Part shown: positions 8,127 through 61,079 of the stretch, one piece after another
Layout: the number at the start of each line of letters is the position of its first letter
How positions within the stretch are numbered: the stretch's first letter is position 1
DNA from: Quercus robur
Taxonomy: Eukaryota; Streptophyta; Magnoliopsida; Fagales; Fagaceae
Length of the DNA stretch: 64,000 nt
Reading direction: 5' to 3'
Assembly: GCF_932294415.1 (NCBI RefSeq)
Contig: NC_065535.1
Span: 69,371,362 to 69,435,361 of the forward strand
Notes under the pieces: generated by a model
Told to the model about the DNA's origin: nothing
What the model saw: only the letters and a program-made list of their open reading frames with translations
The model's database searches: none
Program-made: the position numbers and the translations under genes

Positions 8127-10935
8127 CTAAGAATCAGCAAATACCTGCAAAGAGAATTGTTGGACAAACTTAAACAAGAAATGATAATAAAATAGATGAA
8201 ATAGTTGTCAATTAACAAACTGACTTACCCCAGCCAGGGTATCTTTCGAAAGTCGAGCTTTGGCTTGTCCTGCATTATTTGTAACTGGTTGCTTTTGTGG
8301 GAAATGGCGAATAACCTTTGCTGCCTGCTGGCTAACAGGGAGATCGGAGTTCACTCCTAACTCTTGTTGGACCTTTCGCTTCTGTGGATGCAAGATAAAA
8401 CAGATCGTATTGAATTACTGTAATGGCCTGTTTGGATGGAGGGGAGTAGAGTAGAGTTGACTAAAAATAAGCTAATTTTATGCTAAATCTACTCTACTCT
8501 ACTCCCCCTCTCTCTCCCTCAATCCAAACGGATCATAACATTTCTCAAACCAAGAAAATCCTAAACTGAATGTCCTCAGTGAACTAAATTTCTGACTAAG
8601 AATGCCAAGCCTAAGGAGCAATTTGTATAAGTCAACATGATTGAGCAAAACCACGAAAGAGTAAATGAACTGCCACAAAATGCTTAATCCAAAATTCATG
8701 AATATCCATTAGTTTTTTTATAGAAGCAGATAGCTCCATCCATTAATAATAATCAAACCCATTTTTAATTTAAATACATCACATAGTTTTGCAAAGTTTT
8801 AAACCTTCATCAAATCAAAAATTTCAGTGATACCAATGCATTTGAATATTTCCAAATAAAGAATATAGACAGAATTCTACAAAAAGCTCAATCAAACTCA
8901 TGGTTTTTTTCATGGGAAAAACACAACTCATACAATCACTGAACCCTACATCTCATTCTCCATCTCTTGTTATACTTGAGGAAACAGCACTATATTCAAA
9001 GATCATGCCTGCTAGTAAATTTGACAATGTGGATATTCTCTATTTAGCATTCCAGTTTGTTAAAAGTAATCAATTCCGCAAAACGGCAATGTATAAAGAT
9101 CTTAAAAAACCTTTTTAAGCATCCAAAGCTGAGTTTTTATATTAACTATGTCAATCAACATACAGAGTCTGGTCAACTGCATCCATAGTGTGATCAAGAA
9201 AAAGTATTATTTTGAAAAAATATATTTTGTACCTTCTGTAATCGTTCTTCTATAGCACTCAAAGCACGGGACTTATCAACTTTTTTGAGATAGAAATCCC
9301 GTTCCCTTTTGGCCGCAGAAATTTCTAAATCTAGTTTTTGCTCTCGAATGGCATTCTTCTCAACTGCAATAGAAGCATCTTAGGTTATATCGCTAAAGCA
9401 CTACGATTTATTTCACAGCACAATTCACAAAGGTCCTACCAATCTCTGCAGTAAGATCATCCCACTTGAATTTACTCAAGTACTTGATATTCCACATATC
9501 ATAATAGAATTGTGACCTCTTCCTTCCACCTAAAGATGAACAAAAAAAAGCAGACAATTGATTCTCAATTACAAGAGAAAGACAAGTTGGCCACACTTTA
9601 CTAGAAAAAACGAATAATATATATAAGCAAACTTAGAGAAATAAATCCTCTAAAATGGTTTTTTTTTTTTAATTCAATAGCTAGGGGAGAGAGGATTTGA
9701 ACCCTAGATATCATTGTTCGAAACACCAGGTGCTAGTTGAGCTATAAGGCTGTTGGCCCTCTAAAGTGTGTCCAAAAGAACCCACTTTGCAGGTCTTGAG
9801 AGGAACACCAATAATCTTTATGTATAAACAATTAAAAAAAAAAAAAAAAAGAACCGAAAAAGAAGGTGATAATTTCCATCAAAACACATACCTATTTGTT
9901 CACCATTTAACATATTAGCAACTCTCTTAGCAACCTTTTTATCTGTAAATTCAACCCATCTACACGGCAAACAACAACTATCAAATAATTGGATACTACC
10001 AATTACAATTATCAAGCTTTAATAAACTAAAATGGAAGATATAAAAGAATTTTCAGACATACCCTTCAGAAAATTTTTGCTTTCCGTACTTACCAGCTCG
10101 ACTACGATGTACTTGAGAAGCTGGATCTGTAAAAAACCAAAATTTCAACATGTATAGAAAATCATTGAAGGAAAAGGAAAACCAAAAAGGAAACAAGAAA
10201 AACCATGTAATTTTTTAAATTAATAAAAATGACAAAAGAAATTTACACTGGTTGCTTACTTTGAGATACCAGATAAATCCGATCTATTTCTCCATATTGA
10301 GAGAGAATAACACGAAGACCATCAGGATCCATTTTTGGAGGAATCCGACTCAAGTAGCAAATGCCACGCATGCCACCCTTTGCAGCTCGCTCCAAAACCC
10401 GCTTCTTCTTTTTTTCTTTCTGAAGATCTGCGGCGATCTTAGCATTCGCTTCTGAATACTCCTTATATCTTTTAACCATTTGTTCTTCCTCATCCAAATG
10501 ACTCTCTCCATTCACCTCTTCTTTAATCTTAGCCTTCCCAACTTCCACCGACAAATTTTTTTGTTCGTTTTCACTAGCATCGTCATCAGATTTTGAATTC
10601 CCCTCCACTTCTTTTTTGTTTAACAATAACTTATGTTCAGTTGGCATTTCATCATTGGATTTCAGACTATTAACCTCGTCTTTCTCCTCTAGATGATTCC
10701 CTCCCTTAAACTCTAGTTGATCCTCTTGTTTATTCTCAACCTTCACAGTTCCCACTAATAAACCCTTTTTCTTGCTGTTTGTGATTGCATCATTGAATTT
10801 TGGATTCCCTTCCATTCCGAACCTCCTGTCAACTGCTTCCTTTTCATTTAATAATTGCTTCTTTTTATTTTTCTTTTTTATGCTACTTTTACCCCTGGAT
10901 TTTGCACTATGAAAATCGCATTCTTCATCAACCAT
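8127..10935 (-). CDS. ESF2/ABT1-type RRM protein (pre-18S rRNA processing)
   Basis: Seven coding exons on the minus strand: 10935-10260, 10126-10063, 9959-9892, 9529-9440, 9363-9233, 8381-8229 and 8144-8127, which together give 399 residues in phase. Residues 1-190 are a lysine- and glutamate-rich, low-complexity tail. A single RRM follows at about 195-300, starting near GICYLSRIPP and running past WVEFTDKK and MLNGEQIGG. The conserved stretch NIKYLSKFKWDDL and a basic helix are typical of yeast Esf2 and animal ABT1. These proteins act in the nucleolus in the small-subunit processome. An upstream in-frame start at 10965 is possible, but 10935 directly follows a likely 5' UTR splice acceptor. 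The promoter holds telo-box-like and site II-like motifs that suit a ribosome-biogenesis gene. Confidence 0.92.
8424..8535. mobile_element. Tourist-like MITE in an intron
   Basis: A 112-bp foldback whose ends TGGCCTGTTTGGATGGAG and the reverse complement of CTCAATCCAAACGGATCA pair well, as do the GGAGTAGAGTAGAG arms inside. TAA on both sides (8421-8423, 8536-8538) is the target duplication expected of PIF/Harbinger elements. It lies between exons 5 and 6 of the ESF2/ABT1-type gene. Confidence 0.75.
9659..9757 (-). mobile_element. tRNA-derived SINE
   Basis: On the minus strand the element shows box A TAGCTCAACTAGC and box B GGTTCAAATCC and ends in a poly(A) tail (T run at 9659-9672 on the plus strand). 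Imperfect target duplications flank it (CCTCTAAAATG near 9648 and CCTCTAAAGTG near 9758). It belongs to the same family as 32480-32575. It lies in an intron of the ESF2/ABT1-type gene, in the gene's own orientation. Confidence 0.65.
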
Positions 10936-11541
10936 TCTTACCAATGAAAACAGGACATAAATCACAGTTTGACGATCACACTACAAAAAAAGACAACATA
11001 AAACTGACAACCATAAGTAAATAAATAACAGCAGCAAGAAAATCAATATACAAAACTTATTTCATACAATTTCAAACCCCCCCAATTCTCATTTTAACCC
11101 ATGAATCCTCCCCCTTATAAAGAAAGCAAAAAAATCAATCTGACAAAAGATTAACCATGCATATCACAATCAAAATAGACGTTTATCAGTATCATTGCCT
11201 CAAATTAGCGGCTTTCAAACTAGAGAGAAATTCAGATAAACCTTCAAATTCCACAAACTACAAAGCAAAGCAGTGAAAGTACAAACCACCCCACTTCCTT
11301 TACACAGTTTCACGCCTATACACATTACATAATTTACATCACCCACCCAATTCAGAAAACTCTCTCTCTCACTCTCTCTCTCTCTCTCTCTCTCAAGTTC
11401 CAAGATACCCAAAACTCAACAGTGTAAAGAACAAATTTTTTCACATATACAACAACAAAAACTCAAACAGAACAACAATAGCATAAACCCATATCAGCGT
11501 ATAACCCTATGGAGAGAGAGACAGAGAGAGAGAGAGAGAAC

Positions 11542-46964: not shown

Positions 46965-47742
46965 TTCAAGTTAGGCTTCTACATGCAGATCCATGTAGGT
47001 GAGTTTCCAATGATGTACCATCCCTATCTCTGTTGAAAATTTGGTAAACGATTTTCAACATCCAAAAGTATTGCTTCCACACCCTTCTCTTCTACTTCTA
47101 TGTAACGAGACCCATTACAAGTGACGAAGATAGGAATTTATTTTCAAAGAGAATGAATAAAAATATAACTATTAAGGTTTTTTTTGTTTGGGTTTGTTTA
47201 TAGATACTGTATTCCTTTTATGTATAGTGTACAGTGGCAGAGCCACTTGATGATCGATAGTGCCTTGGTTCCTCCAATTTTTATTTTTTTTGGGAATATC
47301 TTAAATAATTTAAAATTTTTTAAATAACCATATCATTTTGGCCCCCTATACCTGATAATATACATATATATATATATATATATAAAAGAAAGTCTAAAAA
47401 TAAACATAATTTTCATTTAAATAAAATATAATTCATAAATACATATGTTAGCAAATTACAATAATTAAACATTCAACATTTTTAAAATGAACACATAAAT
47501 ATTTTAATAATTACCTCAACAAATAAAAGGGAAACAAATTCTAATTTTCATCCTAACACATCTAGGGTTTACTTGTACATAGCATTAGAAAAATTGAAAA
47601 GTCAAAAACTTTGTTGATGTGCCGCACCATCGAGTCCCCCACACAGTGGCAAAAACATTTTGCCTCACACATTTTACTCTCTCTCTCTCACTCGCTCTCT
47701 CTGTCTCTGTTGGCAACTTGGCATTTGCCTTTTTTTTCTTTT

Positions 47743-48041
47743 GGCAAAAATCCAAAACTAACCCTCTAACTTTTAGCCTTTTTCATTTCAGTTTTTTAAC
47801 TTTTAATTTTATCATTTCAATCATCTAACTTTCAATTGTTGTCAATTCGATATTTAGTTAACCATCTGTTAATTGTCTCTGTTAAATGAGCAAAACGACG
47901 TCATTTTGACTTTTTTTTTTTAATTTTCGTAATTAAAAGAAATTAAAAAAACTGTTATTAAATAAATAAAATAAATAAAACATTTAGGGGAACGACGTTG
48001 TTCCCCTTACCTGAAATCAAAACACAATTCCTACCTAATCA
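47743..48041 (+). repeat. Pack-MULE left terminal inverted repeat
   Basis: Pairs in inverted orientation with 60368-60647. The inner boundary is at ...CTACCTAATCA. Confidence 0.85.
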
Positions 48042-48949
48042 GAACACAAATCGTGTAAAGTTTCTCACATCCCTAAAGTTTCTCACATCAAATTGATAAC
48101 GTCTTAAAATATATACGTGTTATATATTTATGTGGGCGTTATCTCCTTATTACTATGCTTAATTTGTATAATTAAGCCATGATTTGCATTAATCCCTATT
48201 ATTTATCTTTACATAATTTCTTGAATAAGATGCTATTCATTGTGTGTAATTTTCTACTTTCAAGAAATCATGTGAGAAATATGAGTTTATAGGAATTTGT
48301 GAGAGAATGGAGGCCAAACTAGAATTAAAGTGGAGCTAAAGGACCATACTTAAATGTTTAAGGAGGTGTAGCTGGAGTGCTTGGATCATCTACCATGATT
48401 GGAAGCTTCAAATAAGGAAAGAAATCAAAGAGATAGAATCTGAAAAGGAAAAGTCTGATTTGAGCACTGATCAGTATTTTTGGCATATCTCTCTTCTAAA
48501 AAACCCAATTGACACAAAGCCAGATGGGTTGGAACCGTGACTTAAATATCTAAAACTTTGTAGTTTTGAGTTTTTCGAAATTCTCAATTTTTGAAGGCCG
48601 AAATTAATTCACAAATTATTGTTGTAAACCTGGACGGAAATTAAAATAGTAAAAATCTTATTTTCTTTGGACACTTAGACATTAGGGTTTTGAAGGGAGG
48701 CTGGTAGAACAAATTTTGGCAAAGAAAACCTTGTATTTTTCTTTCTTTAATGGCAGCCTAAACTCTTTACTAGGGCTAGGGGTTATGTTTCTTCTATACG
48801 GAATGAATATTCAATGTGATTCTTTCTAGGATTTTATCAACAACATATTTGATTGTTCAATTAGATTTCTTTTGATGTATTAGTTCTTCCATGCTTTCAA
48901 TATGTTCAATCATGTTTTCTTATTGTTTAGATGAATTTTTAATAGTTTT

Positions 48950-49409
48950 TTATGGGATTGACGAGAATGCATCACCTTGAAGAGGTCAACCTAGTGACGA
49001 GGTCATCCCTAGCGACGAGAATCCATCACCGACGAGGGAAGGAAAGTCATTCAATGATGCCAGCAAGTAGCCTGGGCAGTTACGAAACCAGCAAAACAGA
49101 CCGTTGCGGGCCTAATAAAAACCCCATAATTGGGCTGGAGGCATTACCAAAGAGAGGCATTAACACCCCAACGGCTAGCAATCAAGACCACATATATATA
49201 AAGCCCTTACATTGGCAACACAAGGTACACATACTGAGACTCTAAGAAAATACCAATTATTTCCTAGTTTTGCGAATTGCTTTGCTGTTCTAACTTTGGT
49301 ATCGGAGGCGTTGTGGCAGGCACCACACCGGTGACCCCTTTAGTGGATACATTAGTGCTAATGGGGAGTTCCATTTGCCTATTTCGATTGACGAGTTTAC
49401 ACTTCATCA
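48950..49409 (+). repeat. 5' LTR of the Gypsy element
   Basis: 460 bp, starting TTATGGGA (the 3' LTR has TGATGGGA) and ending CATCA. A TATATATAAAG promoter motif lies at about 49192-49202, from which the genomic RNA would start about 30 bases on. Confidence 0.93.
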
Positions 49410-49412
49410 GTT

Positions 49413-49430
49413 TGGCGCCGTCTGTGGGAA
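49413..49430 (+). other. Primer binding site
   Basis: TGGCGCCGTCTGTGGGAA follows the 5' LTR by three bases. This type of site is common in plant Gypsy elements and starts with the TGG complement of a tRNA CCA end. The tRNA species was not determined. Confidence 0.75.
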
Positions 49431-49487
49431 ACGACATTCTTAAATTCATATTTGAAAACGTAGTTTCCATCAACCCTCTACATTCAG

Positions 49488-50975
49488 ATGGAATCCAACC
49501 CAGATTCAGCAACCTTGGCCCAGCAAGTCCAAGCCCTTGCAGCCACCATTGAAGAACTCACCAAACAAAACCAGGAAATGAAGCTACGACTCCAGCAAGT
49601 TCAACAGGCTCAACAGGAAGAGAACTGTTCCAAGGGTAACCTGGAAAGAGAAGGGGATAGCCACCGGAGAGGTACCCCTCAGAGGCCAACTACTCCAGAC
49701 GAGCAGAACTTGGATCTCCTTCGCTAAATGAGGAAGGAAATGGACGAACTGAAGAGCGCCATTAAGGAGAAGACGGACCGGAGCGTAGATAAAATGGTAA
49801 GGGCTACGGATTCACCTTTCACCTCAACGGTACTTGAATGCCCTATACCGTCAAAGTTTCGCTTACCTCAGCTTGAGCCATTCGACAGACTAAAAGACCC
49901 TCAGGATCATCTTAATACCTTTAAGACGACTCTAGGTCTTCAACAACCACCTGACGAAATACTGTGTCGTTCCTTCCCAACCACTCTCAAAGGAGCTGCA
50001 AGAGAATGGTTTACGAAGTTGCCAACCTCGTCTATAGACAACTTCGATCAATTAAGTAGTGCCTTCTTGCGCCATTTCATAGGGGGACAACGTCCAAAGA
50101 GGCCGGTAGACTACTTACTCACCATAAGACAGGGAGAGAAGGAAACTCTGAGGTCATATGTCAAACGATTCACCCGGGAGACTCTGGAGGTGGACGAAGC
50201 CGATGACAAGGTGCAACTGACGACCTTTAAGGCGGGGCTGAGGTCCAGAGATCTCGTGGCCTCCCTCGCAAAGAACCCCCCAAAGACGATGGCAGAAATG
50301 CTCCTGAAGGCACAGAAGTACATAAATACTGAAGATGCTTTAGCCGCCATAAAGAATGCCGAGAAGCCAGGTGACAAAACCAAAAGGGAAGACGACCGTA
50401 GGGGGCAGAAGAGAGATCGACCAGATCGTCAGAACAGTGACGGGAACAGGAGGAAAGATGATAAAAATCCTCGGACGGTAAGATTTACTCCTTTGGTTAT
50501 GCCTGTTGATAAAATTTTCACGCAGATCAAGGACAAGCATTATCTCAAATGGCCCAGACCATTGCACTCATCCCCCAATGTCCGTGACAAGAATAAGTAC
50601 TGCCGGTTCCACAAAGATCACGGCCACAACATGGAGGATTGTAGAGACCTAAAGGAGCAAATAGAGGAGTTAATACGGAAAGGGAAGTTACAGAAATATG
50701 TGAAAAAAGGAGAATATAGCAAGTTCAGGGACGACAATAAAATCCAGCATGAATCCTTCTACCGCGATGACGACTGTCCGTCCCAGCCTCCACACAAGGT
50801 GATCGGGGAGATAAACACGATTACAGGAGGGCCGTTTTCAAGAGGATCGTTTAAATCACTCAAAAAGGCATACCAGAGACAGGTGAATAGCGTCCATGCC
50901 GTACCTCCATCCAAGTACCGACGAATACACCAGGACATGTCCTTCAGTGAAGGAGACGCCATGGGAGTGAAGTAG
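49488..50975 (+). pseudogene. gag: gag of the Gypsy element, with stop codons
   Basis: Starts at the first ATG after the primer site. It is in the same phase to 50975 but has a TAA at 49725-49727 and a TAG at 50973-50975. A glutamine-rich coiled coil (about 49500-49620) precedes the retrotransposon gag domain (about 49850-50290; [21 protein letters not shown]). A charged linker and a zinc-binding [14 protein letters not shown] segment (about 50600-50641) of the kind seen in Tat-type gag follow. Protein context suggests Gln at both stops. The stop at 50973 lies where gag would read on into pol. Confidence 0.9.
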
Positions 50976-53900
50976 CCCCACAACGATCCTTTGGTCATAA
51001 TGCTGAATATAGAAGGGTTCAATACCAAGAGGATCCTCATCGATAATGGAAGCTCCGCGAACATCATCTACCTCCTTGCCTTCCAGCAGCTGAAAGTAGA
51101 TCCGAAAAGACTGTGCCCTTTTGACTCTCCACTCGTCAGTTTCAGTGGAGACAGGGTCTACCCCAAGGGCATAGTGACATTGACGGTGACGGCAGGGGCC
51201 TACCTAGTACAGTTGACCCGACAAGTAGACTTCCTGGTGGTAGATTGTCCTTCATCTTACAATGTCATCATTGGGAGGCCCACACTCAACAAGTGGAAGG
51301 CGGCGACGTCAACCTACTGTTTGAAGGTAAAATTCCCAACAGATAATAGCGTTGGTGAAGTGAAAGGAGATCAAGTCCTGGCAAGAGAATGCTATCAAGC
51401 CATCCTGGCTGGGAAGGAAAACCATATATGGATGATTGAAGAAAAGGAAGAAGACAGGATAGAGGCCCTGGAGACGGTGGAATTGATAGAAGGAGAAGCG
51501 AACAAGACGACCAAGATAGGAACGACGTTGAGCCCTGAGATGAGAACAAGACTCGTAAGGTTCCTTAAAGAGAATCTAGATGTTTTCGCATGGAGCCACG
51601 AGAACATGCCGGGCATATCTCTAGAAGTCATCCGGCATAAGTTGAATGTGGACCCCGAACGAAAACCCATCCAGCAACGACGAAGAACCTTCGCCCCAGA
51701 ACGAGACCAGGTAGTTGCAGAGGAAGTTACCAAACTCCTGACGGCTGGATTCATCTGGGATGTGTATTATCCTGAATGACTAGCAAACATCGTCCTGGTA
51801 AAAAAAGCAAACGGGAAATGGAGGATATGTGTGGACTTCACCGACCTAAACAAGGCATGCCCAAAGGACAGCTTCCCTCTACCAAGAATAGACCAACTCG
51901 TGGACTCCACAGCCGGGCACAAGTTACTGACATTCAGGGACGCCTTCTCAGGGTACAACCAGATAAAGATGGCTGAGGAAGACCAGGAGAAGACCGCCTT
52001 CATCACAAGTCAAGGACTCTACTGTTACGAGGTAATGCCTTTTGGGTTGAAGAATGCTGGAGCTACGTATCAGAGGTTGGTGAACAAAATGTTCAGTCAA
52101 CAGATTGGCAGGAACATGGAAGTGTACGTGGACGATATGCTCGTCAAGAGTAAGGAAGAGCTCACACATCTGGACGACTTGAAGGAAACATTTGCAACCC
52201 TCAAAAAACATTAGATGAGGTTGAATCCAAGTAAGTGTGTTTTTGGGGTAGCCTCGGGAAAGTTCCTGGGATTCATGGTGTCCCAGAGAGGAATAGAAGC
52301 AAACCCAGAGAAAGTGCGAGCCATCGTCAACATGACCTCACCCAAAATCGTCAAGGATGTTCAAAAACTCACAGGAAGGATAACGGCTTTAAACAGGTTC
52401 GTCTCCAGGGCTACAGACAAATGTCTGCCCTTTTTCAAGACCTTGAAGCAGGCTTTTGCCTGGACCGACAAGTGCGAAGCGGCGTTCCAGGAGCTAAAGT
52501 ATTACCTGAGCAGTCCACCTCTCTTAAGCCCGTCCAAAGAAGGGGAAAACCTATACTTATACCTGGCAGTGTCAGCCTCGGCAGTAAGTGCAGCCCTGAT
52601 CAGAGAAGAGGGCAAGAAGCAGCTCTCGATTTACTACGTCAGTCAAGCCTTCCAAGGAGCTGAGTCCAGGTAGCTAAGGATCGAAAAGATCGCGTTTGCA
52701 CTAATAGTAGCCTTGCGCAAGCTAAGGCAATATTTCTAGGCAAATCCCATTCTTGTAATGACAGACCAACCAATCAAGAAATCAATGAACAAGCCTGAAG
52801 CAGCTGGAAGAATGGTCCAGTGGGCGATTGAACTTAGTCAATTTGACATCGAGTACCATCCCAGAACGGCGATCAAGGCGCAAGCTCTGGCGGACTTCAT
52901 CGCAGAGTTCACTCTTCTAGACGAAGACAGGATTACCGATGAGGTAGATAGATGGACAATACAAACTAATGGTTCGTCAGCCCAAAGGAAGGGGGGAGTA
53001 GGGGTCGTCATAACCACCCCTGACGGAGAAGTGCTCAAATATGGGGTCCAACTAAAATTCCCAACCACCAACAACGAAGCTGAATACGAGGGGATACTGA
53101 CGGGACTGAGGCTTGGAAAGGCTCTTGGTGCTAAAAACTTGTTGATCCAAAGTGATTCAAAGCTAGTGATCGGACAGATTATGGGAGAGTACGAAACAAA
53201 GGAAAAAAGGATGTAGAAATACCTCAAGCTGACAAAACATCTAACTCTGGAGTTCGATATAGTGGAGTTCGTGCAGATCCTAAGAAGTCAGAATATGGGA
53301 GCTGATGAAATATCGAAGTTAGCGTCATCAGAAGAAGGGGAGATTAGCACAGATCTGGCGATGGAGGTCTAGAAACACCCTAGTATCGAAGAAATTGCAA
53401 CATTCACCATCTAGAGCACAGATAGCTGGATGACACCCACAATATCCTACCTCCAGGACGGGCGCCTCCCTCAGAACATAGAAGAAGCTAAAAAGATCAA
53501 GAAGAGGGCGGCTAGGTTCACGATCCTGAATGACGCCTTGTACAAGAGAGGCTTCTCTATGCCTTACTTAAAGTGTGTCAACGAGGAAGAGGCTAGATAC
53601 ATCCTGGAAGAAATCCACGGAGGAATTTGCGGCGACCACGCTGGCTCCAGATCCTTGGTGAACAAGGTAGTACGAGCAGGATATTTTTGGCCAACCATGC
53701 AAATAGATGCTGCTGAGATCGTCAAGAAGTGTGACAAATGCCAGTGATACGGGAATGTGCAACGGCTTCCAGCAGAGAGACTGACGACTATAGCTTCCCC
53801 ATGGCCATTTGCACAATGGGGAATTGACATCGTCGGCCTGCTACCCCAAGGTAAAGGTCAGGTAAAGTTCCTACTTGTTGCTATTGATTATTTCACGAAA

Positions 53901-54662
53901 TGGGTTGAAGCAGAGGCTCTAGCAATGATCATTGAGGCTCAAATTCGGAGCTTTGTGTGGAAGAATATAATCTGCAGGTTCGGGATTCCCTTGACGATCA
54001 TATCAGATAATGGGAGGCAGTTCGACAGCCAAGGCTTTAGAGAATTCTATTCAAACCTTGGGATCAAGAATCAGTTCTCATCCCCAGGGCATCCTCAGGC
54101 AAACGGGTAGACGGAAGTGACGAACCGGACGCTGCTCAAGATTATCAAGACCAGGCTGGACGATGCGAAGGGTGCCTGACCAGAAGAATCACCAAATGTC
54201 CTGTGGGCTTACAGAACCACAGCCAGAACCCCGACAGGAGAAACCCCCTTCAGGCTTACCTATGGCACAGAAGCAGTAATCCCAGTCGAAGTGGGGGTAA
54301 CGAGCATCAGATGAGGAACATTCAACGAAGGGATCAATGACGATGAACTACGACTCAACCTGGACTGTCTGGATGAAGTAAGAGACAACGCATCCAGCAA
54401 GATGATGACGTATCAGAAAAAGATGGCCGAGTACTACAATAAGAGGGTTAAACTCAGACGATTGGACATAGGAGACCTCATCCTACGCAAGACCACCACA
54501 GTCACTAAAGACCCTACCTAGGGAAAACTGGGTCCTACGTGGGAAGGACCCTACCGAGTCATTCATTACTCAAGACAAGGAAGTTACCACCTGGAAACCA
54601 TGGACGGACAAAGGTTGCCTCAACCATGGAACATTGAGCATTTAAAAAAGTACCACCAGTAG
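50976..54662 (+). pseudogene. pol: pol of the Gypsy element (PR-RT-RH-aRH-INT), with stop codons
   Basis: One phase from gag to the terminal TAG at 54660-54662, with no frameshift seen. Protease DNGSSA (about 51042); reverse transcriptase from KWRICVDFTDLNKACPKD (about 51816) through YVDDMLV (about 52125); RNase H (about 52430-52760); a second RNase H (about 52955-53330) whose first catalytic Asp reads Asn (AAT, 52968-52970); integrase with an HHCC region (about 53610-53745), GIDIVG and SDNGRQF core motifs, and the C-terminal domain. Stops: 51777, 52212, 52671, 52737, 53214, 53370, 53412, 53745, 54108, 54177, 54312 and 54519 (first bases). The element cannot make these proteins now. Confidence 0.92.
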
Positions 54663-54752
54663 ATGTAATAGACGAATGCAGTCATTATTGAATTTAATAA
54701 AAAAAAAAATTTATTCTCTGATGTCTTTGTACAAACAGGTCTAGTCAATTAT

Positions 54753-54960
54753 AAGGCAAACTAAAGTAACAAGATTTCGCCTTGACGGATGTAAGTTACT
54801 GACGACAACCCCAACGGGTATAAGGCAAACTAAAGTAATAAGATTCCACATTGACGGATGTAAGTTACTGACGACAACCCCAACGGGTATAAGGCAAACT
54901 AAAGTAACAAGATTTCGCCTTGACGGATGTAAGTTACTGACGACCTTCATAACGGGTACA
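54753..54960 (+). repeat. 69-bp tandem repeats in the 3' region of the Gypsy element
   Basis: Three copies with exact 69-bp period start at AAGGCAAACTAAAGTAA (54753, 54822, 54891). Each contains GACGGATGTAAGTTACTGACGAC. Degenerate continuation units run to about 55200. Such 3' arrays are typical of Tat and Ogre elements. Confidence 0.9.
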
Positions 54961-55503
54961 AAGTATATAAAAGCTAAGTGATAAAATTTCGCCAAGATGG
55001 ATGTAAATCATTGACAAAGCCTGAAGTGACGAGATTCCTTAAGTGGATGTAAGTCACCAAAAAATGGCCAAGTGATAAGATTCCGCTTTAATGGATATAA
55101 GTCACTAACGAAGACATAAAAGAAGCAAATGTCCCCAGAACAAGCCGGTGACGAAGACACAATCCTTAAAGCCTACGCAAATGGCAAAGTCCCGCTTGAT
55201 GAACTCAGGATACTGACGAATCCGCAAGAGAAAGGATAAAGAGAAAAAGAAGAAGGACAAGAACCCTCATTAAGGATAAAGAGTGACGGCCAAATCACTG
55301 ACACAGCTAAGAAATTTATGCTAAGTACAAGGTATGGACGAACTTAAACATCACAAACACATGCATGGTTATAAGCACAAGCATAGCCATAAAAACGGGT
55401 AAGTACAAAATCATAAAAAGCCCAAAAACAGCGGGCAATTATCCTTGTTCTTCCTACAGACCCATGAAACAGAGGGTCAAGAGACATTGTTCTGGAAATA
55501 GAT

Positions 55504-55508
<5 letters not shown>

Positions 55509-55535
<27 letters not shown>
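55509..55535. repeat. (TA)n microsatellite
   Basis: A perfect TA dinucleotide run between the tandem array and the antisense gene. Confidence 0.9.
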
Positions 55536-55537
<2 letters not shown>

Positions 55538-55591
55538 ACCAAAAAGCCCAAAACACAACGGGCATATATAACAGATAAATTTTCCTAAGTA

Positions 55592-57828
55592 TCAGGTTCG
55601 GGCGTCAGGAGTGTCAGTAACGGGATCGTCAGCAGTAGCAGGAGCATCATCAGCAATAGGGGCATCATCAACAACAAGGGCGTCACCTTCAGGTGCCGAT
55701 GACTGGGTAGTCTCGTCAGCAGCCATCTCTTGATCCACCACTTTTAGATCCAAATTCGGCAGATCAACTTCGGTAGGATGCTTGACGAGGTACCTACGTA
55801 GGAGCTCGAAACCCTTGAAGTACCAGCTGAAGAGTACTGTGGAGTACTCCTCAGTTTGCTGGAAGGCCTCGATGGACCTAGCAGCGATCGTCTTTAGCTT
55901 CTCCTTTGCTGCCTGTAGCTAGTCGTCCTTCTCCAGGTTTAGCTGACACTAGACCCTAAGGTCGGAATTAAAAGCCTTGACTTTCTCCTTCAAAGTGGCA
56001 GCCTCGTCCATCGACTCTATGATGTCATTTTTCAGCGTGGAGTTCTCCTTCTCCACAGCCTCCATCCTGGACGCCAAAGAAGCCACCTTAGCCTCTTGAG
56101 TGAGACACTCAAAAGCAAGGTGAAGGCTTTCCCCCAACACCTGACAAAGTAAACTAAGTGTGTCAGTAAAAAGAAGGGATGGGGAAATTGATGTGAAAAG
56201 AAACCAAGGAAAATGCATAAACAGTCTTACCTGCACGATCTTATGAACATGCTGACTTGCAACCACGTTGAGAGGCACTCCAGAAAATACCTTAAGGTCT
56301 TCAGCCTTCACAACGTTATGTGCCCGCTCCACGGCCACACCTTTGTTGTCCCAGACGGACGAGCCCACTCTCTCCTTCTCCTTCTCTTGGGCTGACAGTC
56401 TCGACCTCTTTGATGACGGGGTGGGGATCTCCTCAATTGAAGTGGTTGGCAAAGCCACCCGTAGACTTTCTACTCCCGAGACGATGGTAGTGGCATCTGC
56501 GGAGGGAAGGACGGACGGACCCTTCCCTGTGATGCGTACTCCCTTCTTGCCAATGTTCGCCAAGGGTTTGTCCTTCTTGGACCTCATCTTAGCGTACATA
56601 TCTTTGTTGAACCTGGTCGTCATCTCTAAAAAAAAAAAAAAAAAAAATGAGAGAGAGAAACTAAGAAATCTTGAGTACACAAGTGAAGACCAATATTGAC
56701 GAGGAAAACACTTACTCTTCTTCTCCTCGATGTTAATACTGCGCAAAACGTAAGGAGATGGGTCCGGGCCTAAGCAGTAGAAAGCAAGCATCCGTGGGTC
56801 AACGAGGTCGTCCCAACTCTCAATCGACTTTGCGTATTCTATTGCCTTCTCAAGACGACCCTGGTACTTGCTCTTCAGTTTGGGACGTCTTTTAACTACA
56901 AAAGAAAGTGAATAAGTGGTTAGTGACGACCAAATATGCAAAACGAAAATAAACAGACGAGGAGAAACATGGACGCACCTAAGTTTAGGGTTCCCCACCG
57001 ACGAAATAACCTTGGGATATCACCCCAAGCCTCGCTAGAAGGGGTCTTAAAATCATCCCCGGACACGAAAAAGAAACATGATTTCCAGTACCTGAATGAC
57101 GAGGCTAAACCCTCAATGATTCTAGTCCTCCTCATCCAGGGGACTAATTCATAATACCTATACTCTTTCGATTCCTTTAAACGGTAAAGGTGGATGAGCT
57201 CACTCACTTTGATCATATCCTCGTTGGCAGCCAGCCAAATCTCCATACAGTTGATAACTATCCTCCAGGAGTTAGGCATGAGTTGCCTGGGGGCAATGCC
57301 AAAATGACCCAAGAGCTCCATCACCAAAGGATGGACGGGTAGCCTAAGCCCAAAAGTGAAAGTAGCCTCGTAGAAGCATACTTCATCAGGAAAGAAGTGG
57401 CAGGCCCGATCCTCAGGACCAGGCCTACGAATATGGACTCGCGCAAGAAACTGGAACCTATCCTTGAACCTAGCCACGGTGTCAGCGCTTAGCCCACACT
57501 CCTTGTTAAGGGCGTAAAAAGCCCTAACCTGACGAGGGGTGGAAACGATTGTATCACCCTCAACCGGGCCGCCGCTAGACGACAACCCAGTGTCTAGTTC
57601 ACTGGATCTCACCTCCGACATCCTCCTCGTCTCTCCCTCGAACCAAGCTAGTGACTGGCCTAAAATTGGAGACAGTTTCCCTAAAACCACACTCAACCCA
57701 CAACCTTCAAAAAGATAGTCCCCAACCAAAGGAAAAAAGTCCCCGGAGACACCCAAAGCCGCCCCTAAGAGAGTAAAAAAGAAAGAAACTGAGGGGCAAG
57801 CTACCCAAACCTCAGAAGAACTAACCAT
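55592..57828 (-). pseudogene. Antisense spliced gene of the Gypsy element (plant mobile-domain protein)
   Basis: Four exons on the minus strand, 57828-56979, 56895-56716, 56625-56231 and 56140-55592, have GT-AG borders and join in phase to 658 codons including the terminal TGA. Residues about 125-260 (FPDEVCFYEATFTFGLRLP, GIAPRQLMPNSWRI) resemble the 'putative gypsy type transposon' domain that I recall as Pfam PF04195. A KRSR-type basic stretch and a C-terminal coiled coil (EAKVASLASRMEAVEKENS) follow, then an acidic tail rich in Asp and Ala. Two in-frame TAG codons (55951-55949 and 55921-55919) break exon 4. The strand is opposite to gag-pol, and a TATA box lies upstream. The biochemical role of the domain is not known to me. 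Confidence 0.85.
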
Positions 57829-57907
57829 GAAAAGAGGTACACAATTCTAAATGCCCACATATCAAACACGAAAACAACAAAAGCAAAAAACAGAGGAAAA
57901 ATCAGGA

Positions 57908-57914
57908 ATTTATA
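57908..57914 (-). promoter_or_regulatory. TATA box of the antisense gene
   Basis: TATAAAT on the minus strand lies 80 bases before the ATG at 57828, leaving room for a ~50-base leader. It would let the antisense gene be transcribed independently of the LTR promoters. Confidence 0.5.
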
Positions 57915-58336
57915 AGGGGACCATTAAGAAAAAGGATCTGAAAGAAATCAAAGGGGTAGCGTACCTTGAAAAGCGGAACAGACGAGGCCGGAAAAATTTG
58001 TCGCCGGAGCAAGGTCGAAGTTGCCGGAGCAGAATCGGAATAATCGCAGAAGCAAGCAAGAGAGACAAACACTTGGAGCAAAAAAAAAAAAAAAATCGAA
58101 GTGAAGGAAAAAGAAAGGTTTTTGAAACCAAAAATCCAAGGAAACTGAAAAGTAGCGGGAAACCCAAGGGTCATGCCATCAATACCTTCAATCAGCACGT
58201 GCCACGTGGCCACGATGCATACCGCGCCGCCATCGTGCATTAAATTCGAAATAAAACCCCAAGCGTCACAAACAACTCAGGAAAAAACCTTTCACCTTCT
58301 GTGGCCCTCATGACACGTCACTGACGACCACATAAC

Positions 58337-58348
58337 TTGGGGGGCAAC
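58337..58348 (+). other. Polypurine tract
   Basis: TTGGGGGGCAAC directly precedes the 3' LTR, with a six-G run as the likely plus-strand primer. Confidence 0.65.
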
Positions 58349-58808
58349 TGATGGGAGTGATGAGAATGCATCACCTTGACGAGGTCAACCTAGTGACGAG
58401 GTCATCCCTAGCGACGAGAATCCATCACAGACGAGGGAAGGAAAGTCATTCAATGATGCCAGCAAGTAGCCTGGGCAGTTACGAAACTAGCAAAACAGAC
58501 CGTTGGGGGCCTAATAAAAACCCCATAATTGGGCTGGAGGCGTTACCAAAGAGAGGCATTAACACCCCAACGGCTAGCAATCAAGATCACATATATAAAA
58601 ATCCCTTACATTGGCAGCACAAGGTACACATACTGAGACTCTAAGAAAATACCAATTATTTCCTAGTTTTGCGAATTGCTTTGCTGTTCTAACTTTGGCA
58701 ACGGAGGTGTTGTGGTAGGCACCACACCGGTGACCCCTTTAGTGGATACATTAGTGCTGACGGGGAGTTCCATCTGCCTATTTCGACTGACGAGTTTACA
58801 CTTCATCA
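58349..58808 (+). repeat. 3' LTR of the Gypsy element
   Basis: 460 bp, TGATGGGA to CATCA, the same length as the 5' LTR. By eye about 20 substitutions separate the two, and about 12 are transitions. Confidence 0.93.
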
Positions 58809-59357
58809 GTTTCAAATAGAAATCAGGTTTTAAAGTGAATGGATTTTTCTGAAAATTTTTCTAACCGCATTATTAATCGAGATTATCATGCGTTTTTAAA
58901 TTGTCTCAGTTCAACCGAATCATAAGTTTTTAATTGTATAAGAACAATCAATTATGAAATAGATATTTTCTTAGATCACAAAGAATTTCATATCGATATA
59001 AGGAAACACCCTGATGCCCTAGTATTTTACATTATTGATTTAAATCAGTTTTTATTATTATTCTTGTTAACAATCACCAAGCAAAAGTATTTTTCTTCTT
59101 CACCCAAATTGTTATTTAATTATATTGTCTTTGAATTTACCCTGCTCCTTGTGGTTCGACTTCGGTACTCCGAGAATTATATTACTATGATCTCCTACAC
59201 TTGGGAGTGAGCAAGCACAAATTGGTACTCCTTTATGGCAGCTTCAACTGGAAAAGAAATTAAGCCAAGAAATCCCATGAAAAGAAAAGCGAACAGAGAC
59301 TTCTTCATACACACTGAAAGAGAGAGAGGCTTCAGAGATCTCAGTTTGTTATTGGAA

Positions 59358-59585
59358 ATGGTTACTTTCAGGTTCCACCAGTACCAAGTTGTGGAGCATG
59401 CTTTGCCCACTGAATCCGATGAGCACCCTAAGATTTACCGCATGAAGCTCTGGGCCACGAACGAGGTTCGCACCAAGTCCAAGTCTTGGTATTTTCTAAG
59501 GAAGCTAAAGAAGGTCAAGAAGAGCAATGGGCAAGTGCTTGCTATTAATGAGATCTTTGAGAAGAACCTAACCAAGAAAAGTGAA
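59358..59585 (+). pseudogene. RPL18A: Truncated ribosomal protein L18a (eL20) fragment in the Pack-MULE
   Basis: The ATG at 59358 opens [12 protein letters not shown], and about 75 residues follow the plant L18a N-terminus ([43 protein letters not shown]). Homology then stops and an unrelated tail runs to a TAG at 59634-59636. The full protein has about 178 residues, so over half is missing. The frame is intact and also open upstream to an ATG at 59235, so a 133-residue chimeric protein could in theory be read. The MULE terminal repeats on either side indicate capture by the transposon. Confidence 0.9.
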
Positions 59586-59690
59586 CAGCAACAAGACTCT
59601 AGCCATTTTCCTAGTAAAAAAAAGCTTCTAGTGTAGTGTTTGTATGGATGAGACACTGAGGTGTAATGACTTGAGGTGGATATATGTATG

Positions 59691-60309
59691 TAGGGGTGTT
59701 CACCAAACCGCATAAACTGTAAAAATTGTACCAAAACCGCTCACAAAATAGTATAACCACACCGCACCGCAAGTAATAGTGCACCGCACCACATCGCATG
59801 GTGCAGTGCGGTTTGTAGTTTTATAATAAGAAAACAACACAAACCAAACCGCACCACACCCTCTCTATATATTAATATATTTATTTATTTTTAATATTAA
59901 ATATATTATTAATAGTTTAATAACCCTAGTTTTCAAAAAAAAAAAAAGTTTAATAACCCTAACAAGTGTTGACTAGAAAAGCCAACCTAAAATAAAGAAA
60001 AACTAGCTCAATAATTTAAAACTTGGTCCAAAAAAAGGGAAAAATTAGTTTTGGACTGAGTAGGAAAAGCCCAAAATTTAAAAAATATACCGATTTCAAA
60101 CCGCATCTTATATATAGTATCGCACATGTGATTGCAAAAATGAGGTACGGTGTGGTTATAATTTTGGCTAAACTCTAAACCACACCACACCGCATATGTG
60201 ACTGCAAAAATAAGATGCAGTGAAGTTATAGTTTTAGGTAAACTGCATCGCAAAGTGCGGTGCTAAAAATGACTCAAAACAGCACCACACTGCACCGCGA
60301 ACACCCCTA
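59691..60309. mobile_element. hAT-type non-autonomous element inside the Pack-MULE
   Basis: 619 bp with perfect 11-bp ends TAGGGGTGTTC and GAACACCCCTA, and a perfect 8-bp duplication TATGTATG at 59683-59690 and 60310-60317. Sub-terminal ACCGCACCGCA-type repeats lie in both arms. There is no transposase. Confidence 0.92.
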
Positions 60310-60367
60310 TATGTATGTATAGAGGTAATGGTTGGATATCAGTTTGTAGAAGAGAAGCGGTGGTGGA

Positions 60368-60647
60368 TGATTAGGTAGGAATTGTGTTTTGATTTCAAGT
60401 AAGGGGAATGACGTCGTTCCCCAAACTTTTTTTTTTATAACAGTTTTTTAATTTCTTTTAATTATGAAAAAAGAGAGAGCCAAAACGATGTTGTTTTACT
60501 CATTTATCGCAGACAGTTAACAGATGGTTAACAAAATACTGAATTGACAATAATTGAAAGTTAGAGGACTGAAATGAAAAAAGGCTGAAAGTTAGAGGAC
60601 TGAAATGAAAAAACTGAAAGTTAGAGGGTCAATTTTCAATTTTTGCC
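60368..60647 (-). repeat. Pack-MULE right terminal inverted repeat
   Basis: Inverted partner of 47743-48041. It contains a small internal duplication of the unit GAAAGTTAGAGGACTGAAAT. Confidence 0.85.
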
Positions 60648-60899
60648 TTTTCTTTTTAGTTCTTTCCTTTTCCTCTCTCCCACTATTGCTGTAGTTTGTT
60701 TAAAAGTAAAAGTTCTGTACTATGTGACTAAATTAGACAAGAAAGAGTGAAAGATTGAAGCTTGTGTTGTGGACCCCTCATACTGTGACTGTGTAGCGCT
60801 TTATGCCCTTAGCTGACCCCTTGTTTTTAACTCTTTCTCAGGTACTTTACATTTGCTTTGTTTTGATTTTATTTACTTTACTTTTCATTGCTTTTTTTT

Positions 60900-61015
60900 T
60901 TTTTTTAATATTCCTTTTAATTTTAATTAAATACACTTTTGTTTATAACACATTTTCCTTTTAATTTTAATTAAATACACTTTTGTTTATAGTACATATT
61001 TTACTTTTCATACCC
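60900..61015. repeat. ~50-bp direct repeat
   Basis: CCTTTTAATTTTAATTAAAT plus the following ACACTTTTGTTTATA occurs twice (from about 60913 and 60958) near the right end of the outer hAT element. Confidence 0.75.
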
Positions 61016-61079
61016 ACAAAAAAAAAAATTATATATAACTCCTTAAAGATAAATTCCTAACTCTACCACTGATGGTGTA

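Follow-up and report, generated by a model that had tools for sequence, protein, structure and literature searches.

How did a piece of a spliced ribosomal-protein transcript come to lie inside a DNA transposon that is itself buried among other transposons? The question is raised by a locus of Quercus robur at positions 47232-61071 of a 64,000-nucleotide stretch (contig NC_065535.1 of assembly GCF_932294415.1, here C2:69371362-69435361), which we call the window and whose numbering we use unless a contig is named. Here an outer hAT element encloses a Pack-type Mutator-like element (Pack-MULE), within which lies a solo long terminal repeat (LTR) holding a Gypsy retrotransposon; the Pack-MULE also carries host DNA interrupted by part of the gene for ribosomal protein eL20 (RPL18a). 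Judged from its sequence, the eL20 piece has the make-up of a 3′-truncated, tailless retrocopy in the MULE-carried host DNA: its introns are missing, it starts near the expected transcript start, it has no tail, and an 18-bp repeat at its borders is single in insert-free DNA. We consider it probable that spliced eL20 mRNA was retro-inserted with a target duplication and was then spread by the MULE, the layered stack having formed afterwards.

The eL20 insert (59300-59573, + strand, 274 bp) consists of 5′ untranslated region (UTR), exons 1-3 and part of exon 4. Searching the genome (785.7 Mb, 42 contigs) with this piece gave seven candidates, all of which were scored: five MULEs, a gene on C5, and one match on C4 that is a single exon-sized block of 65 bp at 82%. 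The C5 locus (C5:59987679-59988354) is the native eL20 gene, matched in three exon-sized blocks. Within the stretch covered, its introns measure 315 bp (GTAAGC...TTACAG), 102 bp (GTGAGT...GATTAG) and 1,033 bp (GTATAT...ATGCAG). In all five MULE copies exons 1-2-3-4 are joined and the three introns are gone exactly at their GT..AG sites; these copies differ from the parent exons at 12/274 to 22/280 sites. The name eL20 rests on this DNA identity to the native gene together with the match of the joined native exons to 60S L18a/eL20 chains of solved ribosomes (best 8azw_I, E 3.7e-44).

The absence of introns bears directly on an earlier note on this DNA, which spoke of a captured gene fragment and so implied ordinary Pack-MULE capture of genomic eL20 DNA. 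What was so described is twofold, a piece of host DNA also present on C6 and, within it, an eL20 part that reads as a spliced retro-insert with a target duplication of its own. Genomic capture does agree with the Pack-MULE structure, with its terminal repeats and 9-bp duplications, but we regard it as very improbable for eL20, as it is contradicted by the clean loss of three introns in all five copies, and the only match besides the MULEs and the C5 gene is the 65-bp block on C4.

The borders of the insert are equally informative. In all five carriers (the window and the copies L009, L010, L012 and L013), which are MULE copies at separate sites, eL20 is bordered left and right by the 18-mer AAGAAAAGTGAACAGAGA. 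The left copy in the window (59282-59299, +) adjoins the insert, as does the start of the right copy (59574-59591, +); the two agree at 15/18 positions in the window, 17/18 in L009, 18/18 in both L010 and L012, and 15/18 in L013. The same 18-mer is single in L016, a MULE free of eL20, and in the likely source of the host DNA on C6. As is characteristic of tailless retropseudogenes, introns are absent and the target duplication has a single-copy empty site. On the native gene, the start of the insert falls 34 bp downstream of the first T of TATATAA, near CTTCTTCATACAC, presumably at the eL20 transcript start. It ends in mid-coding sequence (...CCAACC) with no poly(A). At this 3′ junction the mRNA reads CCAACC-AAGA-TCAAG and the target AAGA-AAAG, so that AAGA is common to both. 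Nick sites of the kind W/AAAAWW are described for tailless retropseudogenes (PMC5322556); the candidate nick here, GGAA/AAGAAAAG or GGAAAAGA/AAAGTG, is A-rich and has no exact match to that motif.

Two further explanations accept a spliced template and differ in how it entered the MULE. Gap filling during MULE repair could have copied an existing processed eL20 pseudogene, making the capture DNA-based with only its template a retrocopy. A microhomology-based model for pack-type elements (PMC8277862) and the four bases of microhomology at the junction speak for this route; we nevertheless think it unlikely, since the seven scored candidates of the genome search include no free-standing eL20 retrocopy, and an arbitrary template is not expected to produce either a flanking repeat or a boundary at the mRNA start. 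The main rival to target-primed reverse transcription is break repair: a double-strand break with staggered ends in the MULE would have been joined with an existing eL20 cDNA from the reverse transcriptase of an LTR element, and filling in of the overhangs would have given the 18-bp repeat. Break repair accounts just as well for the loss of introns, the absent tail and the repeat, and capture of reverse-transcribed spliced mRNA at breaks has been described in mouse zygotes (PMC4516963). It does not by itself predict a start at the presumed mRNA 5′ end, or the AAGA shared by mRNA and A-rich target at the 3′ junction, and we rate it as possible though distinctly less probable than retro-insertion with a target duplication.

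In the reading that we prefer, the MULE already carried host DNA when eL20 arrived. This host DNA lies in four parts on the + strand: its first 12 bp (48082-48093), its continuation to the eL20 insert (59223-59299), the stretch from the eL20 insert to the second hAT (59574-59690), and the last part (60318-60385). In the alignment of MULE copies, two loci run through the eL20 position without eL20. One is the MULE L016 (C40:37932461-37933411; duplication 9/9), and the other is L025, at C6:6993491-6993797. The 8.5 kb surrounding this C6 site showed no MULE ends, and the two short matches to the terminal inverted repeat (TIR) query in it (18 and 23 bases) both fall within the shared host DNA. Because the host DNA is present there without eL20 and without MULE ends in the 8.5 kb, the C6 stretch is the likely source of the host DNA in the MULE. 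The same 8.5 kb has open reading frames (ORFs) that we take to resemble pieces of laccase and RCC1. Measured against the C6 source, L016 differs least of the copies, at 9/235 sites against 13/241 to 18/236 for the others, and this smallest plain distance favours an early branching of L016.

Several points weigh against the retro-insertion reading or parts of it. The placement of the event inside the MULE depends on L016 representing the earlier state, and in the best gene-A tree L016 groups with the eL20 carrier L012 (approximately unbiased test, p-AU 0.90). The bootstrap value for this pair is 62, or 81 on 1,082 columns (unrooted); alternatives with L016 outermost or with L012 outermost have p-AU 0.10 each, and neither is rejected. 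L016 might have lost eL20 by recombination between the 18-bp repeats, and if so the eL20 insertion might predate capture by the MULE. The presumed mRNA start is drawn from its distance to the TATA box. The insert has no poly(A), its target is A-rich but not TTAAAA, and decay has left the repeat in the window at 15/18. The window frame that runs through eL20 was scanned with Pfam, and no family reached E 0.001. For the surrounding stack, a search of the same genome for the empty site of the outermost hAT found nothing except the two flanks that reaches the junction (26 rows). Apart from the two flank rows, 23 match at most 53 query bases near the left end, and the remaining one is a 70% match over query bases 373-558, short of the junction.

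The frame just mentioned (59235-59636, +, 133 amino acids) passes from host DNA through the eL20 piece and back into host DNA. It has 119 amino acids in L009 and is broken in L010, L012 and L013. With the frame broken in three copies and no Pfam family found, we do not claim a function for a chimeric gene made of host DNA and eL20. In the 5′ UTR part of eL20, compared with the native gene, L013 shows a large AC/AG repeat expansion and L012 an AG expansion.

Retro-insertion with a target duplication would fit the following series of events. The layers, the splicing, the direct repeat, its single-copy site and the separate insertions of the MULE are seen in the sequences themselves; we infer the acting enzyme, the priming step and the presence of host DNA in the MULE before eL20. 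A non-autonomous MULE would have taken up about 0.3-0.4 kb of host DNA also present on C6, into which an L1-like enzyme may have reverse-transcribed spliced eL20 (RPL18a) mRNA. Pairing of the nicked target with the internal AAGA of the mRNA would leave the 3′ part and the tail missing, while synthesis reached the presumed 5′ end and gave a target duplication of 14-18 bp. The loaded MULE then transposed, giving the five copies found, one of which inserted into the hAT at the window locus. A second hAT and an LTR element later entered this MULE, the LTR element was reduced to a solo LTR, and the Gypsy inserted into that LTR.

We turn to the stack that surrounds this insert. Element boundaries were read straight off the sequence, and inverted and direct repeats were located independently (MULE arms, Gypsy LTR pair). 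Each layer was emptied in silico and the emptied sequences were used as queries against the same genome, and the chance of each target duplication was computed from its local flanks.

The Pack-MULE (47743-60647, no strand assigned) has TIRs of about 300 bp and measures 1,149 bp once emptied. Its target duplication, TTTTCTTTT, is 9/9 (47734-47742 and 60648-60656; chance 1e-5), and its inverted-repeat arms of 115, 85, 40 and 38 nt match at 83-87%. A 9-bp target duplication is a trait of the Pack-MULE family. Within the family, both ends are present in nine copies, with a 9/9 duplication in seven and 8/9 and 7/9 in the other two. The eL20 carriers L009, L010, L012 and L013 have 9-bp duplications of their own, at 8/9, 9/9, 7/9 and 9/9. 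Long TIRs, the 9-bp duplication, and host fragments (eL20 and the C6 piece) carried by copies that lie at separate sites together identify the element as a Pack-MULE. The 9-bp targets of the family are nearly all A/T, with 3 G/C in 81 left-flank bases of nine copies. The emptied MULE is matched end to end at C3:39992409-39993585 with 90% identity, and the sites of both the solo LTR and the second hAT therefore exist empty. In the inner part of the left TIR (47743-48093) the right end of the carried host DNA recurs as a short piece in inverted orientation, among the aligned copies in the window and L009 only; this looks like TIR growth by gene conversion.

The second hAT (59691-60309, +) is a non-autonomous element of 619 bp with termini TAGGGGTGTTC...GAACACCCCTA. 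It had been placed inside the Pack-MULE with an 8/8 duplication by the earlier note, and family ends and duplications bear this out. The duplication TATGTATG is 8/8 (chance 6.5e-5), and the site of insertion is a TATG repeat. Of 39 other rows, 28 cover the element end to end (bases 1-619), and a 7/8 or 8/8 duplication borders 6 of 10 copies, so that both the 8-bp duplication and the constant termini of a hAT are found.

The solo LTR (48094-59217, +; TG...CA) measures 1,260 bp once emptied and has a 5/5 target duplication, CAAAT (chance 0.0011). With 854 of its 1,260 bases serving as query, the Gypsy site was spanned in all 40 scored LTR rows (389 candidates), at 92-95% identity. In the one full-length relative examined (C2:69155872-69163396) there are two LTRs of this kind, and the duplication, ACAGC, is 5/5. 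A complete LTR with its own duplication and no internal region, alongside a full-length relative, is what a solo LTR should present.

The Gypsy element (48950-58808, +) is 9,859 bp long, with interrupted, defective reading frames and two LTRs of 460 bp each (5′ LTR 48950-49409, 3′ LTR 58349-58808, both +) that diverge by a Kimura two-parameter (K2P) distance of 0.045. Its target duplication, GTTTT/GTTTC, is 4/5, which with a chance of 0.033 is weak by itself. Of the rows other than the window's own two LTRs, 35/38 cover query bases 3-460, and a script scored a 4/5 or 5/5 duplication in 7/10 copies. In two of the three it missed, the motif lies a few bases off and reads by eye, at TGATGGG, as TAATG/TAATG and CTTGA/CTTGA; the third lacks coverage of the left LTR end. 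The Pfam scan, which took in 10 of 17 ORFs, gave the order gag, RT, RT_RNaseH_2, RVT_3/RNase_H, H2C2, rve, that is, the gag, reverse transcriptase, RNase H and integrase order of a Gypsy element. Two antisense ORFs of 349 and 302 amino acids follow (55949-57828, -); the shorter matches Transposase_28 (E 8.5e-9), and the Pfam scan found no family on the longer. A second RNase H and an antisense ORF downstream of integrase are traits of the Tat lineage. Since RVT_3/RNase_H follows RT_RNaseH_2 here and the antisense ORF matches Transposase_28, the element fits that lineage, in keeping with its original description as a 9.86-kb Tat Gypsy. Between the integrase and the antisense ORFs, at 54750-54973, is a repeat of three copies with 69-bp spacing.

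The outer hAT (47232-61071, no strand assigned) is also non-autonomous, measures 926 bp once emptied and ends in CAGTGGCAGAG...CTCTACCACTG, termini with what we take to be a Tip100-like look. Its 8-bp target duplication (left copy ATAGTGTA, 47224-47231; right copy ATGGTGTA, 61072-61079; strand not assigned) agrees at 7/8 (chance 0.0014) and accompanies short TIRs, as in other hAT elements. Both ends were present in 4 of 18 family loci scanned, one of which (L047) has an 8/8 duplication. Relatives are matched at 83% over the longest stretch (query 53-855), at up to 87% over shorter ones, and at 90% over one stretch of 258 bases. Among the listed matches to the emptied hAT, 30 of 62 cross the MULE site unbroken, that is, run from before query base 280 to beyond 550. 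In this family, internal segments also occur head to tail, three in a row per place, at L043, L057 and L060 (C35:48441257-48443910) and at L051 (C5:31656258-31657651).

Taken as a whole, the stack at 47232-61071 is real: the ends of all five elements agree with those of their families in this genome, which also has every emptied site but the outermost intact at another locus, four of five in all. The removal of layers and the alignment of family members, both proposed with the earlier note, confirmed the termini and target duplications of all five elements, and yielded empty sites for all but the outer hAT. Could the whole be an assembly artefact or a set of chance duplications? The Gypsy duplication alone has a chance of 0.033, and that of the MULE is T-rich. 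Such an origin is nonetheless extremely improbable, contradicted as it is by the family-consistent ends and the four intact sites; chance duplications as the basis of the stack are ruled out by the computed chance values and the family copies.

The nesting itself gives the order of insertion. The hAT came first, followed by the MULE, then the LTR element and then the Gypsy, which is the outer-to-inner order that had been read originally. The second hAT is younger than the MULE and could have preceded or followed the solo LTR. Five nested transposons had been claimed; four are nested (hAT, Pack-MULE, solo LTR, Tat-type Gypsy), giving a depth of four layers, and the fifth, the second hAT, lies side by side with the LTR. 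A repeated choice of target, also proposed, finds no support, as no site is common to any two insertions. Identity to relatives fits the nesting order only roughly (hAT 83%, MULE 90%, LTR 95%, Gypsy LTR pair K2P 0.045). As a retro-insert, the eL20 piece would add one more insertion, older than the arrival of the MULE at the window locus. The outer stack is otherwise an ordinary, clean insertion record of a common plant type; layered insertions are likewise found in nested arrays such as those described for wheat 3B (PMC4290129), from which it has no essential difference. Elsewhere in the window, the sole ORF of at least 220 amino acids outside the Gypsy lies at 10243-10965 (-) and has 240 amino acids.

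The eL20 insert is less ordinary, and known systems resemble it in part. Spliced host transcript in a DNA transposon has been described for histone H3 in hAT elements of Dothideomycete fungi (PMC6710886), where, as here, a spliced transcript or retrocopy was amplified by the transposon that carries it. The fungal case involves hAT elements with copies damaged by repeat-induced point mutation (RIP), whereas ours is a plant MULE; the passages on H3 in that report mention neither a target duplication around H3 nor an insert-free sister, both of which are present here. Plant Pack-MULEs, as described in PMC4858842 and PMC13317346, share TIRs, host fragments and several copies at separate sites with this element; it differs from them in that one of its two host fragments is spliced and lies within the other, bordered by a target duplication of its own.

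The anatomy of the insert resembles that of therian tailless retropseudogenes, which are described as 5′-complete and 3′-truncated, flanked by a target duplication and primed internally at an A-rich site (PMC5322556), with the proviso that the 5′ end here rests on the TATA distance. Unlike those cases, the host is a plant and the copy lies inside transposon DNA that then multiplied eL20. L1-like retrocopies have been described in dicots, some with duplications of about 13-17 bp (PMC4838847); the L1-like cases named there carry poly(A) and none is described inside a MULE, whereas the eL20 insert is tailless and inside one. Among the papers listed in a literature search, with subscription papers mostly outside it, none shows a plant MULE in which a retro-insert has a target duplication of its own and a sister element is free of the insert. 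From fungi, the capture of spliced sequence by a DNA transposon is known; the target-duplication evidence appears new within the literature searched.

By what means DNA transposons acquire unlinked gene fragments is still an open matter, and a 2026 review allows that an undiscovered mechanism might exist (PMC13317346). The eL20 fragment is one that can be traced to reverse transcription, by the introns that it lacks, by its ends and by the target duplication around it, and as far as sequence can tell its origin in this Pack-MULE is by retroposition. Whether Pack-MULEs acquire host gene fragments by retroposition straight into an already mobile element seems to us evenly balanced. If they do, a tailless, internally primed mRNA copy would land in a MULE with a target duplication and be multiplied as DNA, and some of the intronless "captured" fragments of other plants would share this origin. 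A short direct repeat, still present as one copy in a sister element without the insert, would make them recognisable, and the test, missing introns together with a target duplication, is simple and applicable to any plant genome.

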